From assembly GCA_007132865.1 (NCBI GenBank), contig SLNU01000302.1, positions 1-7,628 on the forward strand: a DNA stretch of 7,628 nucleotides, in the 5' to 3' direction. A program made the position numbers and the translations under genes. This DNA is from Bacteroidales bacterium (GTDB lineage Bacteria > Bacteroidota > Bacteroidia > Bacteroidales > UBA7960). Below the pieces are notes generated by a model, which ran no database searches, had not been told where the DNA came from, and saw nothing but the letters and a program-made list of their open reading frames with translations. This document shows positions 2,809-6,858 of this stretch, one piece after another (position 1 is the stretch's first letter; every line of letters begins with the position of its first letter).

Positions 2809-3924
2809 ATGAACATGATCCGCAGGTCTGGTCTTTTCATGCTGGCGGTGGTCATGCTGCACGCCTGCCAGCCTACCGCCACGCATGAAACGCAAACCGA
2901 AACCTTTGTCGAGGGCCAGAAGCATATATTGCTGATGCATCCGACAGTGAACAACCTCAGAACTTTTTACTTCCTGACAACGCAGGGACTGTTCACCCTC
3001 CCGGAAGATTACCGCGTGATCGGGGTTTACCACAATGAAGGTCGTTACGACTACAGCCTTTCTGAAGCCTTTGTTCTGGAAGAAGGACTGGAGAACATTG
3101 CATTGCTGGGACTGGAACCCGCACTGGGGCAGGATGAGCTGTTCGGCGAAAATGCGCTGTCCCCAACCTTTACGGAGCTGTTCTCGAACTCAAAGGGGGT
3201 GATTTTTTTCGGCGGACCCGATATCCCGCCGGCCGTTTACGGGGAGGAGACCGACCTGCTGACGGTCATCACCGACCCCCATCGCCACCACCTTGAATTG
3301 TCCTTTTTGTTTCACCTGCTGGGCGGATACCAGGATGCATCCCATAGCCCCTTGATGGAGGCTGACCCCCACTACCGCATCCTCGGGATCTGTCTGGGCA
3401 TGCAAAGCATGAATGTGGCCACGGGCGGCACCCTGACGCAGGACATCCCGACGGCTGTCTATGGCAAAACAAGCGTGGAGCAGGTGCTTGCATTGGAGCC
3501 AGACATGCAGCACAGAAATTACCAGACCCATTTTTCGCTTGACCAACAGATTACCTCTTATTCCTATCATCGTATCCGCATGGAGCCCGGATCAGACCAT
3601 GCGGCATTGGTAGCCGGACCGGAGAGCTTTCCGGTGGTCATGAGCTCTCACCACCAGGCAGCCGACAAGCTGGGAAAGGGGTTCCGCGTAACTGCATGGT
3701 CGATGGACGGGAAGGTCGTGGAAGCAATCGAGCATGAGACATACCCCCATGTGGTGGGCGTGCAATACCACCCGGAGCTAAGGTTTATTTACGAAGCGGA
3801 AACCAAGGTGGGACATGTGCCCGGAAAGCAAGCGGAGCATTCTTACATGGACCTTTGGCCGGGGGAAAAGGGAGCGGATTTCCACCGGGACTTCTGGTCA
3901 TACATCGGGGTCATGTACCCATAA
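2809..3924 (+). CDS. Lipoprotein with class I glutamine amidotransferase-like (peptidase C26) domain
   Basis: A 371-residue predicted lipoprotein. The N-terminus RRSGLFMLAVVMLHAC is a type II signal peptide with lipobox LHAC, giving acylated Cys20. The +2 position is Gln, and no acidic surface-export motif follows, so a periplasm-facing outer-membrane location is likely. The catalytic domain matches peptidase C26 (gamma-glutamyl hydrolase / PuuD-like): FFGGPDIPPAVYGEE near 133-147; ILGICLGMQSMNVATGG around nucleophile Cys195; QDIPTAVYG at 211-219; SSHHQA at 279-284; and GVQYHPEL with His321 and Glu323 of the triad. Family members cleave gamma-glutamyl bonds (gamma-glutamyl-GABA, folate polyglutamates). 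At 371 residues it is about 110 longer than PuuD, mostly from the extra N-terminal stretch. All catalytic residues are present, so activity is likely; the substrate is unknown. The ATG at 2809 is followed by a second ATG at 2815, and either gives the same signal peptide. TATATTTA at 2761-2768 is only a weak promoter candidate. Confidence 0.87.
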   Translation: MNMIRRSGLFMLAVVMLHACQPTATHETQTETFVEGQKHILLMHPTVNNLRTFYFLTTQGLFTLPEDYRVIGVYHNEGRYDYSLSEAFVLEEGLENIALLGLEPALGQDELFGENALSPTFTELFSNSKGVIFFGGPDIPPAVYGEETDLLTVITDPHRHHLELSFLFHLLGGYQDASHSPLMEADPHYRILGICLGMQSMNVATGGTLTQDIPTAVYGKTSVEQVLALEPDMQHRNYQTHFSLDQQITSYSYHRIRMEPGSDHAALVAGPESFPVVMSSHHQAADKLGKGFRVTAWSMDGKVVEAIEHETYPHVVGVQYHPELRFIYEAETKVGHVPGKQAEHSYMDLWPGEKGADFHRDFWSYIGVMYP

Positions 3925-3927
3925 CAG

Positions 3928-3957
3928 CTGGAACTGCGACATTTTTTTGTAATTTTG
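3928..3957 (+). promoter_or_regulatory. Candidate promoter of the DUF4834-yfhO-glycosyltransferase operon
   Basis: TAATTTTG at 3950-3957 is a full match to the Bacteroidota -7 element TAnnTTTG. At the 19-base spacing used by the rpmH promoter the -33 position reads GCTG (3927-3930), only half a match. Transcription would start near 3962, giving a leader of about ten bases before the ATG at 3972. Its position just after the lipoprotein stop supports the short form of the next gene and a separate transcript. Confidence 0.45.
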
Positions 3958-3971
3958 ATGCTTTTGCGCCC

Positions 3972-4202
3972 ATGCTTAGACTCATTGCCACATTCATACT
4001 TATATATCTGGTGTTCAGGATCGTCACAGCCTGGATCATGCCCATGGTGGTCAGATGGTATGTGAACCGTTACAAGAAAAAGTATTATGACAGAAACCAG
4101 CAGGTCAGAAAGGAGGAACCCCCTTCCAAAACCGACCAGCTGGGAGAATATGTGGACTTTGAAGAAGTAAAGGAGGACGACCCAAAATCCAACACCCAAT
4201 AG
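3972..4202 (+). CDS. DUF4834-like small membrane protein
   Basis: A 76-residue protein. Residues 1-27 (LRLIATFILIYLVFRIVTAWIMPMVV as core) form one hydrophobic membrane segment; residues 28-48 are strongly basic (RWYVNRYKKKYYDRNQQVRK), so the C-terminal part is probably cytoplasmic. It ends with QLGEYVDFEEVKEDD, which matches the (L/V)GEY(I/V)DFEE signature I associate with DUF4834 proteins of Bacteroidota. The frame is open back to 3855, but I chose the ATG at 3972: it begins after the upstream stop (3924), follows a TAnnTTTG box, and gives the family's usual start at the membrane helix. The last six residues PKSNTQ and the TAG stop are encoded entirely by the first three units of the 7-bp repeat array. 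Function unknown; from memory these proteins often precede yfhO, which is the case here, so a role beside YfhO is a reasonable inference. Confidence 0.82.
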   Translation: MLRLIATFILIYLVFRIVTAWIMPMVVRWYVNRYKKKYYDRNQQVRKEEPPSKTDQLGEYVDFEEVKEDDPKSNTQ

Positions 4203-4307
4203 CCAACACCCAATACCCAACACCCAACAGCCAACAGCCAACACCCAACAGCCAACACCCAACAGCCAATAGCCAATAGCCAACGTCCAACAGCCAATAG
4301 CCAAAAT
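4182..4307 (+). repeat. Heptanucleotide tandem array, 18 units of CCAAYAS
   Basis: Eighteen 7-base units run without a phase break. Units vary almost only at position 5 (C or T) and position 7 (C or G): CCAACAC, CCAACAG, CCAATAG and CCAATAC, plus one CCAACGT at 4280-4286. Both end units are CCAAAAT (4182-4188 and 4301-4307). A looser 14-base period is also visible, with CCAACAC-CCAACAG pairs at 4217, 4238 and 4252. The array codes the last six residues and the stop (4200-4202) of the DUF4834 protein, fills the 103-base gap, and its last two bases are the first two of the yfhO ATG. It is C/A-rich with few G, so the mRNA here should be almost unstructured. The minus strand of the units has no stop in any frame. 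Confidence 0.97.
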
Positions 4308-6822
4308 GGAAAAAATAAAACGCCTGCTGTCCCGGTGGGACCCCAAATCCTGGATCCCCTACCCTGTCGCAATCGCATTGTTCGTCATTCTGTCCATCGC
4401 CTATGCCAGTCCCCTTCTCCAGGGCCGGGTGCTGGTGCAGCAGGACATCATCAAGTTCCAGGGCATGGCCAAGGAGATTGCCGACTTCAGGCAGGAAACC
4501 GGGGAGGAGGCCCTGTGGACCAACTCCATGTTCGGCGGCATGCCGGCATTCCAGATCTCGGTGGTCTATGCCAACAACATTGCCAACTACCTGCATGAGA
4601 TCATGACACTCGGGCTGCCCCGGCCAGCCGATATGATATTCCTGTATTTTGCCGGGTTTTTCATCTTCCTGTTGCTGCTCCGGGTGAACCCCTGGATTGC
4701 CCTGGCAGGGGCAGTGGGCTTTGCCTTCTCATCCTACCATTTCATTATCCTGGAGGCCGGACACAACTCAAAGGCTGTGGCCATCGGATACATGGCGCCG
4801 GTACTGGGAGCCATTATCTATACCTTCAGGGGGAACTACCTGTGGGGAGGCATATTGTTTGCCATCTTCATGGGACTGCAACTATGGGCCAACCATTTTC
4901 AGATGACCTATTACCTGGGCATTATCGTACTCATTTATGGCGTGTTTGTCCTGGCTGAACACCTGCGCGAAAAGCAGACGCACAGGATGCTGCGGGCCAT
5001 GGGGGTGCTGGTGGCGGGATTGGTGGTGGCAGTCGGACTGAATACCGGGAATTTCTGGTCTACTTACGCTTACACCTCTGAGACCATGCGCGGGGGCTCT
5101 GAACTGACCCTGGATGACCGGCAGCAAAGCAGTGGACTTTCAAAGGAATACATCACCAGCTGGAGCTACGGCAAGCAGGAAACTTTCAGCCTGGTGATCC
5201 CCAATGTGAAGGGAGGAGCGACCGGAAGGCTGGCAGAGAACCAGCGGGCGATGGACCGGGTCGATCCGGAGCTGCACCAGCTGCTCGGCTCAGAGAACCA
5301 TTACTGGGGCAACCAGCCCTTTACCTCGGGATCCGTCTACGTGGGGGCCATCGTAATCTTTTTCGCCATTCTGGCCCTGTTCCTTGTGAAGGGTCCGATG
5401 AAATGGGTAATGGTGATAGCCACCGTGCTTTCTGTCCTGCTGGCCTGGGGAAAGAACTTCATGCCGCTCACTGAATTTTTCATTGACCACTTTCCGGGCT
5501 ACAACAAGTTCCGGGCTGTGTCCATGACCCTGGTCATCGCGGAACTCTGCATCCCGGCCATGGCTTTCCTGGGCCTGAATGAGCTGTATAAGAACCCGTC
5601 GAAGCTGACGATCAGGAGCCAGGCTCTGTGGGGAAGTGTACTATTCACGGCAGGCATATTATTGATTTTCTACGTTGCCCCGAAAGCCTTTTTTAGTTTT
5701 TTCAGCCAGGAGGAAGCCTTCACTTTCCGTGAGCTGGGCGCCTCCGAACCGATGTTTGCAGCCCAGCTCAATCAGTTTACCGATATACTGGAACAGACCC
5801 GCATCCATATCTTCCGCATGGATGTGCTCAGGAGCCTGCTGTTCAGCCTGGGTGCCGCCTTGCTTGTGATCCTGTTCATCCGGAGGAAATTGACCCGGGT
5901 GGCTTTTATAGTCCTGCTCGTGGCGCTGATCACGGTCGATATGTGGCCAGTGAACAAACGCTACCTGAACGACAGCCACTTCCAGCCAAGGCGGCGGGCC
6001 GAGGTGCCATTTGCCCCGCGTGCGGCCGACCAGTATATTTTGTCAGATCAGACCGGACCATTCAGGGTGCTGGACCTCACTGAGAGCCCGTTTAACAGCT
6101 CCCGGACCTCCTATTACCACCATTCGATCGGAGGCTATCACGGCGCCAAGCTGCAACGCTACCAGGACCTCATCGACTTCCGGATCACCCCGGAGATGAT
6201 CCGGATGGGGACCAAGCTGCAGCTGACCTCGAGCCTGGACTCCGTGGCCGCAATCTTCCCGGAAATTCACACGCTTAATATGCTCAACACCAGGTATTTA
6301 ATAACCAACCCGGAAACCGCTCCACAATACAACCCCCATGCGCTGGGAAATGCATGGTTTGTGTCCAACTACCGCCTGGTCGGCAATGCCGACGAGGAGA
6401 TGCTGGGCCTGGAGGAGATCGACCCGTCGGCCACCGCCTTGGTAGACAGGCGCTTTGCAGGCCACCTGGAGGGGAAGGCTTTCCGTTCAGACCCCAATGC
6501 CTGGATCGAACTCACAGACTATCAGCCCAACCGGCTTATATACCGCTACAGCGCAGGCAGCGAACAACTGGCCGTTTTCTCCGAAGTATATTACCCGGAC
6601 GGATGGAAGGTCTTCATCAACGGGGAGGAGGCCGGTCACTTCCGGGCGAACTATATCCTGCGGGCCATGGTGCTTCCGGCGGGCAGCCATGAAATCGAAT
6701 TCCGCTTCGAGCCACAAACCTATCAAGCCGGGGAGAAAATATCGCTGGCATTCAGCATACTGCTGGTACTGGTGGTGGTGGGGGCAGGTGTTTTGCATTT
6801 TCGTCGGATGGACCAGGCTTAG
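4306..6822 (+). CDS. YfhO-family polytopic membrane protein (GT-C-like)
   Basis: An 838-residue inner-membrane protein of the YfhO family. I count about 14 hydrophobic segments: roughly 17-37, 108-127, 129-147, 155-173, 178-196, 199-218, 228-248, 343-362, 365-381, 404-424, 440-460, 507-525, 529-546 and 811-831. Large extracytoplasmic parts lie at about 250-340 and 548-810. The C-terminal motif YYPDGWKVFINGEEAGHFRANY (762-783), then LPAGSHEIEFRF (790-801), is the characteristic YfhO ending. LVQQDIIKFQG in the first outer loop (Asp47) is where GT-C enzymes keep a catalytic Asp. Characterised Gram-positive YfhO-type proteins are linked to glycosylation of teichoic acids; the Bacteroidota role is not known to me, but envelope sugar transfer is the best inference. 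The ATG at 4306 lies at the end of the repeat array (CCAAAATGG) and gives a basic N-terminus before the first helix. The gene sits between the DUF4834 gene and a GT4 gene, all co-directional. Confidence 0.93.
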   Translation: MEKIKRLLSRWDPKSWIPYPVAIALFVILSIAYASPLLQGRVLVQQDIIKFQGMAKEIADFRQETGEEALWTNSMFGGMPAFQISVVYANNIANYLHEIMTLGLPRPADMIFLYFAGFFIFLLLLRVNPWIALAGAVGFAFSSYHFIILEAGHNSKAVAIGYMAPVLGAIIYTFRGNYLWGGILFAIFMGLQLWANHFQMTYYLGIIVLIYGVFVLAEHLREKQTHRMLRAMGVLVAGLVVAVGLNTGNFWSTYAYTSETMRGGSELTLDDRQQSSGLSKEYITSWSYGKQETFSLVIPNVKGGATGRLAENQRAMDRVDPELHQLLGSENHYWGNQPFTSGSVYVGAIVIFFAILALFLVKGPMKWVMVIATVLSVLLAWGKNFMPLTEFFIDHFPGYNKFRAVSMTLVIAELCIPAMAFLGLNELYKNPSKLTIRSQALWGSVLFTAGILLIFYVAPKAFFSFFSQEEAFTFRELGASEPMFAAQLNQFTDILEQTRIHIFRMDVLRSLLFSLGAALLVILFIRRKLTRVAFIVLLVALITVDMWPVNKRYLNDSHFQPRRRAEVPFAPRAADQYILSDQTGPFRVLDLTESPFNSSRTSYYHHSIGGYHGAKLQRYQDLIDFRITPEMIRMGTKLQLTSSLDSVAAIFPEIHTLNMLNTRYLITNPETAPQYNPHALGNAWFVSNYRLVGNADEEMLGLEEIDPSATALVDRRFAGHLEGKAFRSDPNAWIELTDYQPNRLIYRYSAGSEQLAVFSEVYYPDGWKVFINGEEAGHFRANYILRAMVLPAGSHEIEFRFEPQTYQAGEKISLAFSILLVLVVVGAGVLHFRRMDQA

Positions 6823-6858
6823 GCCAACGACCCGCATCTTAGGCCCACGTACCGCATG
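6819..6858 (+). repeat. Imperfect 20-bp tandem duplication spanning yfhO stop and next start
   Basis: TTAGGCCAACGACCCGCATC (6819-6838) is followed directly by TTAGGCCCACGTACCGCATG (6839-6858), 16 of 20 bases identical. The yfhO stop TAG (6820-6822) is in copy 1. The glycosyltransferase ATG (6856-6858) is the end of copy 2; the same place in copy 1 reads ATC. The 33-base gap between the genes therefore consists entirely of this duplication. Confidence 0.85.

Follow-up and report, generated by a model that had tools for sequence, protein, structure and literature searches.

The junction between a small open reading frame (ORF) and a yfhO-family gene in a Bacteroidales bacterium is built from a tandem array of seven-base units, and this raises the question of what the array is and how it came to join the two genes. 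The whole stretch of DNA analyzed, referred to as the window, has 7,628 nucleotides. The array occupies positions 4182..4307 on the forward strand and is composed of 18 heptamers (18 × 7 = 126 bases) of consensus CCAANAN, all in a single register without any phase break. Positions 1-4 (CCAA) are invariant in 18 of 18 units. Fifteen units conform to CCAAYAS, the first and last units are CCAAAAT, and one is CCAACGT. Position 7 is C in six units, and only there does the opposite strand carry GGG. TRF places a period-7 array at 4189-4304 with a score of 141 and no indels. Hence, TRF and the unit reading confirm the register-perfect array of 18 heptamers given in a preliminary description of this DNA, and the unit reading also bears out its CCAAAAT ends, the right one entering the yfhO ATG. 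The same description had the array filling the whole gap between the genes with no phase break. None is seen, but the array starts within the upstream gene and the true intergenic part is 4203-4305. Outside the array, the window has just three CCAAYAS heptamers, all solitary, and the array has no head-to-head partner there. No Rfam family reached its gathering score in the window, and neither sigma-70-like promoters nor terminators were predicted in 3880-4400, where a sigma-70 model says little for Bacteroidota.

The window encodes, in order, an M20-type peptidase, an ORF with a weak, sub-cut-off DUF6377 match, a C26-type amidotransferase, the small ORF, yfhO, and a glycosyltransferase. The small ORF (3972..4202, forward strand) encodes 76 residues ending in EDDPKSNTQ, of which PKSNTQ and the stop codon are supplied by units 1-3 of the array (4182..4202, forward strand), the stop being the TAG within CCAATAG. 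The name DUF4834 for this gene comes from the preliminary description; a Pfam search with the small-ORF protein returned no family at E 0.001. At the other end, unit 18 (CCAAAAT, 4301..4307, forward strand) shares its final two bases, AT, with the yfhO start codon at 4306-4308 and places an A at -3. The yfhO-family protein (4306..6822, forward strand) has 838 residues and scores 26.1 bits with Pfam YfhO, slightly below the cut-off of 28.5; PF09586 is present in many relatives. The leader RNA is predicted to have no more structure than shuffled sequences (z 0.94, with 164 of 200 shuffles folding equally well). The C/A-rich leader, unstructured relative to shuffles and with A at -3 of yfhO, is compatible with the translation-leader role suggested for it in the preliminary description, but nothing shows that it evolved for yfhO. 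The window also has a second repeated spacer joining two genes, an imperfect 20-base tandem duplication at 6818-6857 (TRF score 59), which holds the yfhO stop codon and ends at the ATG of the glycosyltransferase.

The list of open reading frames and protein matches also includes a mechanical reading of the reverse strand, 4085..4378, with the sequence LLAVGCWVL. We regard it not as a gene but as an artefact of the repeats, whose reverse strand reads through without stops. The LLAVGCW-type reading has 47 protein matches among 114 candidates. Spurious LLAVGCW-type proteins arising from repeats had been named in the preliminary description for Bacteroidota; this is supported by matches with names from Bacteroidales and Saprospiraceae, but the matches also carry the names Xanthomonas citri, Aeromonas, Delftia, and Oscillospiraceae. 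A literature search for LLAVGCW found nothing.

The same junction was inspected in relatives through a yfhO-family scan of bacterial and archaeal genomes, from which the best 80 of 486 loci (1.27 Mb) were analyzed, mostly from Bacteroidales or other Bacteroidota MAGs. Runs of three or more CCAA[CT][AG]N units occur in none of the 80 loci, and three CCAANNN units are found in the 300 nt or less 5' of yfhO at none of them. The junction spacer is readable at 61 of the 80 loci and has three CCAA units in 0 of 61. The small ORF was matched by tblastn at 36 of the 61 readable junctions, and in 34 cases it lies no more than 120 nt from the yfhO start. Its order with yfhO is thus kept across junctions free of the array, which means that the gene order is widely maintained without it. 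Two in-register units, CCAACAG CCAAAAG, lie ten bases 5' of the yfhO ATG in L003 (1604-1617), a locus otherwise free of arrays; this pair is perhaps the seed or the remnant of an array. Ten short period-7 runs made of other units are present in seven of the 80 loci (L015, L026, L030, L038, L054, L076, and L079), compared with 0-6 runs each for periods 5, 6, and 8-11.

Closer relatives give a different picture. The nearest yfhO locus (L001, 94% identity) belongs to a genome referred to here as the sister genome (G001), but its contig opens only at yfhO residue 11 and thus misses the orthologous junction. With the small ORF as query, 13 proteins were found. The tails of P0121 (PTANSQ, then stop) and P0126 (PTPNTQ, then stop) correspond exactly to three heptamers read in frame, the last being CCAATAG, and the tail of P0122 (QKPNTQ, then stop) can be read as two units plus a partial third. 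A heptamer-type tail is absent from P0123, P0124, P0125, and P0127. P0122 and the yfhO protein P0003 (88% identical) both list a contig with a length of 385,452 and are probably encoded on the same one. Because the P0121, P0126, and P0122 tails read as heptamers, an array at the yfhO junction seems to be common to some near relatives, with turnover of units, as judged from protein tails instead of DNA. The preliminary description had held that a role at this junction would be unlikely if the array were missing from close relatives with the gene order intact. Such an absence is found in the more distant relatives, with no array at the 61 readable loci of 80, but not in the two closer ones with exact heptamer-like tails, and the third departs from it in part.

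On 25 contigs of the sister genome, at least 38 blocks are four or more units long; the window array brings the number to 39. This reading covers the 25 contigs, one of them (C195) for its first 20,000 bases only, and more arrays are possible. In G001, overlapping matches number 100 for the exact three-unit pattern and 421 (143+278) for five CCAA cores at a 7-base spacing; such cores at a spacing of 8 or 6 give none. A period scan of 254,600 bases, made up of G001 loci mostly picked for arrays, the window, and control contigs of which five were masked, gave 44 period-7 runs and at most two for any other period from 4 to 12. Arrays of four or more units are found in none of the 13 usable G001 control contigs (18 were taken, and five consist only of N). 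Several contigs break off at an array, and array counts from assemblies are therefore probably too low. The median array length in G001 and the window is 15 units. Unit composition was derived from 580 units in 37 blocks, window included; as blocks were required to have at least five CCAA, the statistics are conditional on the core. Positions 1-4 deviate in seven of 2,320 bases, leaving CCAA 99.7% fixed (99-100% per position). Position 5 is C in 269 units, T in 228, A in 76, and G in seven (top base 46%), and position 6 is A in 460, G in 95, C in 20, and T in five (top base 79%). Position 7 is near random (C 149, G 181, A 129, T 121; top base 31%).

Placement of the arrays is tied to gene edges and depends on orientation. 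In the sister genome, 24 of 33 3' ends of the CCAA strand come within 12 nt of a gene boundary (14 at starts and 10 at stops), as against four of 26 5' ends. These boundaries come from a custom gene caller whose start sites are rough, and the ATG test was therefore repeated independently of the calls. A long-frame ATG, with a frame of 50 or more codons or of 25 or more if cut off by the contig end, falls between -7 and +12 at 17 of 37 3' ends versus two of 33 5' ends. At two of these 17 ends (L123 and L127), a longer stop-adjacent frame is present as well. Stop-adjacent frames at 5' ends (10/33) were left out, as some of them merely read through the facing array without a stop. None of the 39 blocks is inside a called gene, and L111 alone had been placed inside one by earlier versions of the caller. 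Random placement, genes included, had been named as a finding that would speak against a role of the array; the G001 arrays are not random, with 3' ends hugging gene boundaries and no block inside a called gene.

Ten head-to-head pairs are present in G001, and nine of them share the center TTRG|CTAA. Eight of the ten pairs are free of a spacer, six with TTGG|CTAA and two with TTAG|CTAA. L115 has the TTRG|CTAA center before a later phase break (by eye), and L119 has a different center. The L126 pair folds at -82.5 kcal/mol versus -49.4 for shuffles (z -7.47), and its arms can pair. In L126, L118, L128, and L175, the two arms mostly differ in unit subset, CCAAYAG/CCAACAA versus CCAAAGT/CCAATGT/CCAACGT.

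Beyond the sister genome, five CCAA cores at a spacing of 7 occur in 59 of 395 genomes of the phylum (G001 included), at 8 in 17, and at 6 in 10, and G001 tops all 395 at spacing 7. Together with the blocks of G001, these genomes bear out the alternative reading already offered in the preliminary description, that the window array is one member of a dispersed heptamer family. Four exact CCAAYAS units are found in G001 and in three of 58 other searched relatives. Arrays of CCAAYAS units are also present in G004, G020, G031, and G037, and among the matches listed, genomes mostly have their own unit sets. A letter-reversed control with AACC-spaced heptamers matched many genomes (G385, for example, with 38+75), so heptamer arrays are generally common and not restricted to CCAA; the wrong-spacing controls (8 and 6) gave some matches too. 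AACC-spaced heptamers are present in large number in G385, G177, G150, G267, and G427. G244 is an exception to the excess of 7, having CCAA arrays at an 8-base period (56+18 matches). A viral or mobile-element origin was considered and rejected, as four exact units occur in only 22 stretches on 21 contigs of a 2.9 million-contig viral set, too few for a carrier.

Two generalizations from the sister genome failed in other genomes. The first is the outward rule, by which the 3' end is nearer to a gene than the 5' end. With both flanks called, it is followed by 15 of 20 blocks in G001 and the window and by 41 of 42 in G356. The other counts are 8/10 in G037, 5/6 in G438, 1/1 in G031, 1/2 in G020, 1/4 in G004, 4/13 in G431, and 4/13 in G158; five listed G356 places and two contig-edge G438 places are left out of the counts. 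The pooled value outside G001 is 65 of 91, but it is made by G356, and the remaining 24 of 49 show no excess. A general outward rule is therefore rejected, and the orientation rule is bound to some lineages, because the seven genomes other than G356 pool at 24/49. The second is a general 4+N+1+N unit, which is rejected because position 6 varies in G158 and G431 among the matches listed; in these two genomes positions 1-4 were fixed by the search, so their constancy carries no information. Three features of individual genomes were observed along the way. The outward arrays of G356 (L151-L170) often flank terminator-like hairpins or recurring palindromes (by eye), and in the same genome CCAACAT units turn in register into CATCTGT/CATCCGT units (by eye). 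In G431 (L221, contig C8, 1551-1634), CCAAGTA and CCAAATT strictly alternate over most of the length, giving a 14-base period.

Heptanucleotide long simple sequence repeats and an excess of period 7 in some bacterial genomes were reportedly described by Mrazek and colleagues in 2007, as cited in PMC4679880 and PMC4692102, with slippage proposed as the cause. The closest likeness to the present arrays is found in the heptamer repeats GGGAATC of Xanthomonas and GGGGA(C/T)T of Nostoc (Rehm et al. 2015, PMC4692102). In the portions of that paper drawn on here, the Xanthomonas heptamers have positions 1-4 and 6 conserved and positions 5 and 7 variable, are mostly intergenic, and usually have four units. 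The 5' end of their G strand is near an ORF, so that the C strand runs into genes. They lie antisense upstream of ORFs or sense past stops, and inverted pairs number 70 and 75 in two Xanthomonas genomes. The closing statement of the paper leaves the role of its heptamers still to be found. The window array shares with both groups the tandem 7-nt unit. The Xanthomonas pattern of conserved positions 1-4 and 6 and variable positions 5 and 7 recurs in G001 and the window, with position 6 varying in G158 and G431 among the matches listed. The G001 arrays are likewise dispersed and mostly intergenic, with 0/39 in called genes. The C-rich strand runs toward the nearest ORF in the window's lineage and in G356, though not in general, and inverted pairs are present (10 in G001), though none at the window array. 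The differences are equally clear. The letters are other than those of Xanthomonas and Nostoc, and the quadruplex-capable GGG tract is not kept, since position 7 is C in just 149 of 580 units. The median length is 15 units in G001 and the window in contrast to mostly four in Xanthomonas, and the arrays are mostly flush with start and stop codons in contrast to an average distance of about 28 nt.

A second group consists of the TAACTGA direct repeats described from Beggiatoaceae, Cyanobacteria, and five Bacteroidetes, near upstream of start codons (MacGregor 2015, PMC4679880). Going by the parts of this paper used here, the likeness lies in intergenic heptamers close 5' of starts, with long arrays and other heptamers in some Bacteroidetes. 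The TAACTGA unit is fixed, with two to six copies in the main genome and one indirect repeat, whereas the present arrays have a variable CCAANAN unit and commonly form head-to-head pairs. TAACTGA as a unit is not in the unit list of G001 and the window. The CCAANAN family, its spread in the phylum, and the TTRG|CTAA center were not found in a literature search, with most subscription journals lying outside that search. We file the window array as a new variant among known intergenic heptamer arrays that works alike, and place it outside the G-quadruplex family because the unit layout holds in G001 but the GGG tract does not.

What, then, is the array at the yfhO junction? Arrays of this kind are dispersed in the sister genome, sit at gene edges, and keep one register and a constant core, and in the window one of them stands in place of the spacer of the relatives. 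Probably, the lineage has a heptamer satellite dispersed between its genes, of which the array is one copy; it would spread until it reaches coding sequence and act as a passive leader without structure. Arrays would arise in intergenic DNA, and replication slippage together with unequal exchange or gene conversion would lengthen them and mix their units. Purifying selection on genes would halt the spread at coding sequence, and as a result arrays would end flush with start and stop codons. At the yfhO junction, the array would have taken the place of an earlier spacer and of the earlier tail of the upstream ORF, and it now supplies the stop codon of that ORF and a nearly unstructured C/A leader for yfhO. 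As the phylum initiates translation without relying on Shine-Dalgarno pairing, its ribosomes may tolerate such a leader; Bacteroidetes lack Shine-Dalgarno sequences and tune initiation by secondary structure and an A at -3, according to excerpts of PMC6847099. Selection may also account for the orientation at gene starts. The CCAA strand would be favored there because it gives an unstructured leader, whereas the TTGG strand brings TTG starts and stop-free upstream frames. As CCAA is near-perfectly conserved beside a random position 7, we infer that either selection or the copying mechanism keeps the core constant. Three observations do not fit the satellite. Slippage and drift predict neither a random position 7 next to four near-invariant ones nor centers shared by nine of ten pairs, selection on leaders leaves the orientation at stop codons unexplained, and the outward rule is absent from seven other genomes pooled (24/49). 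The random position 7, the shared center, and the orientation at stops might instead reflect a binding protein or a dedicated building activity.

The first of these, a multivalent binding platform, is unlikely but has several points in its favor. A putative trans-acting DNA- or RNA-binding protein would read CCAA (or TTGG) every 7 bases, and its binding would maintain the arrays, for instance as insulators or translational regulators. The near-invariant CCAA next to variable positions 5-7, the tight gene-edge placement in G001, and the arrays of CCAAYAS units in four further genomes agree with this, and a binding protein was proposed for the TAACTGA repeats in the sections of MacGregor 2015 (PMC4679880) considered here. 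However, arrays facing both starts and stops present opposite strands in the transcripts, other genomes have different units, and 55 of the 58 other searched relatives of G001 are without four exact CCAAYAS units.

The second, a directional element built outward from the TTRG|CTAA center by a dedicated copying or recombination activity, is rather improbable. It would account for the spacer-free TTRG|CTAA center in eight of ten pairs and for that of L115 before its phase break, for 3' ends that reach genes while 5' ends mostly do not, and for the 41 of 42 outward blocks of G356, some of them around terminator-like hairpins or palindromes. The differing center of L119, the unpartnered window array, and the pooled remaining genomes, which break the rule, argue against it; moreover, palindromic slippage or template switching would produce this pattern with no dedicated enzyme involved. 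There is only a slim chance that, in a wider form of this idea, a dedicated lineage-specific activity builds and keeps heptamers of four fixed and three looser positions, working outward from TTRG|CTAA on the CCAA strand to the gene, rewriting intergenic DNA, leaders, and even stops, with other Bacteroidota having their own versions and Xanthomonas and Nostoc distant counterparts.

A G-quadruplex element of the Xanthomonas/Nostoc type acting on transcription is very unlikely. Unit layout and orientation are as in the consulted parts of PMC4692102, but the G strand has GG, and GGG only where position 7 is C (149 of 580 units, 6 of 18 in the window). Hardly any weight falls on a phase-variable leader that tunes yfhO through unit number. 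Tandem repeats flush with a start codon could in principle vary in number, but the G001 arrays are at many loci and also at stops, which make up 10 of the 24 flush 3' ends. An assembly artefact or chance can practically be dismissed even though several array-bearing contigs terminate at arrays, as separate assemblies (the window, G001, and proteins of other sources) point to arrays with different unit orders, and 18 in-register CCAA cores far exceed expectation.

We therefore return to the dispersed satellite as the preferred reading and consider what the arrays mean for the lineage. The layout and orientation of the Xanthomonas heptamers reappear in a Bacteroidales lineage whose repeats use other letters and have not kept the G tracts, suggesting that G-quadruplexes do not unite this class of repeats. 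The arrays overwrite native spacers, a leader, and the stop codon of a conserved gene pair, and they can create false ORFs and break assemblies. This lineage and its sister genome are thus a place where the cause of such arrays, be it slippage, selection, or a dedicated factor, could be tested.
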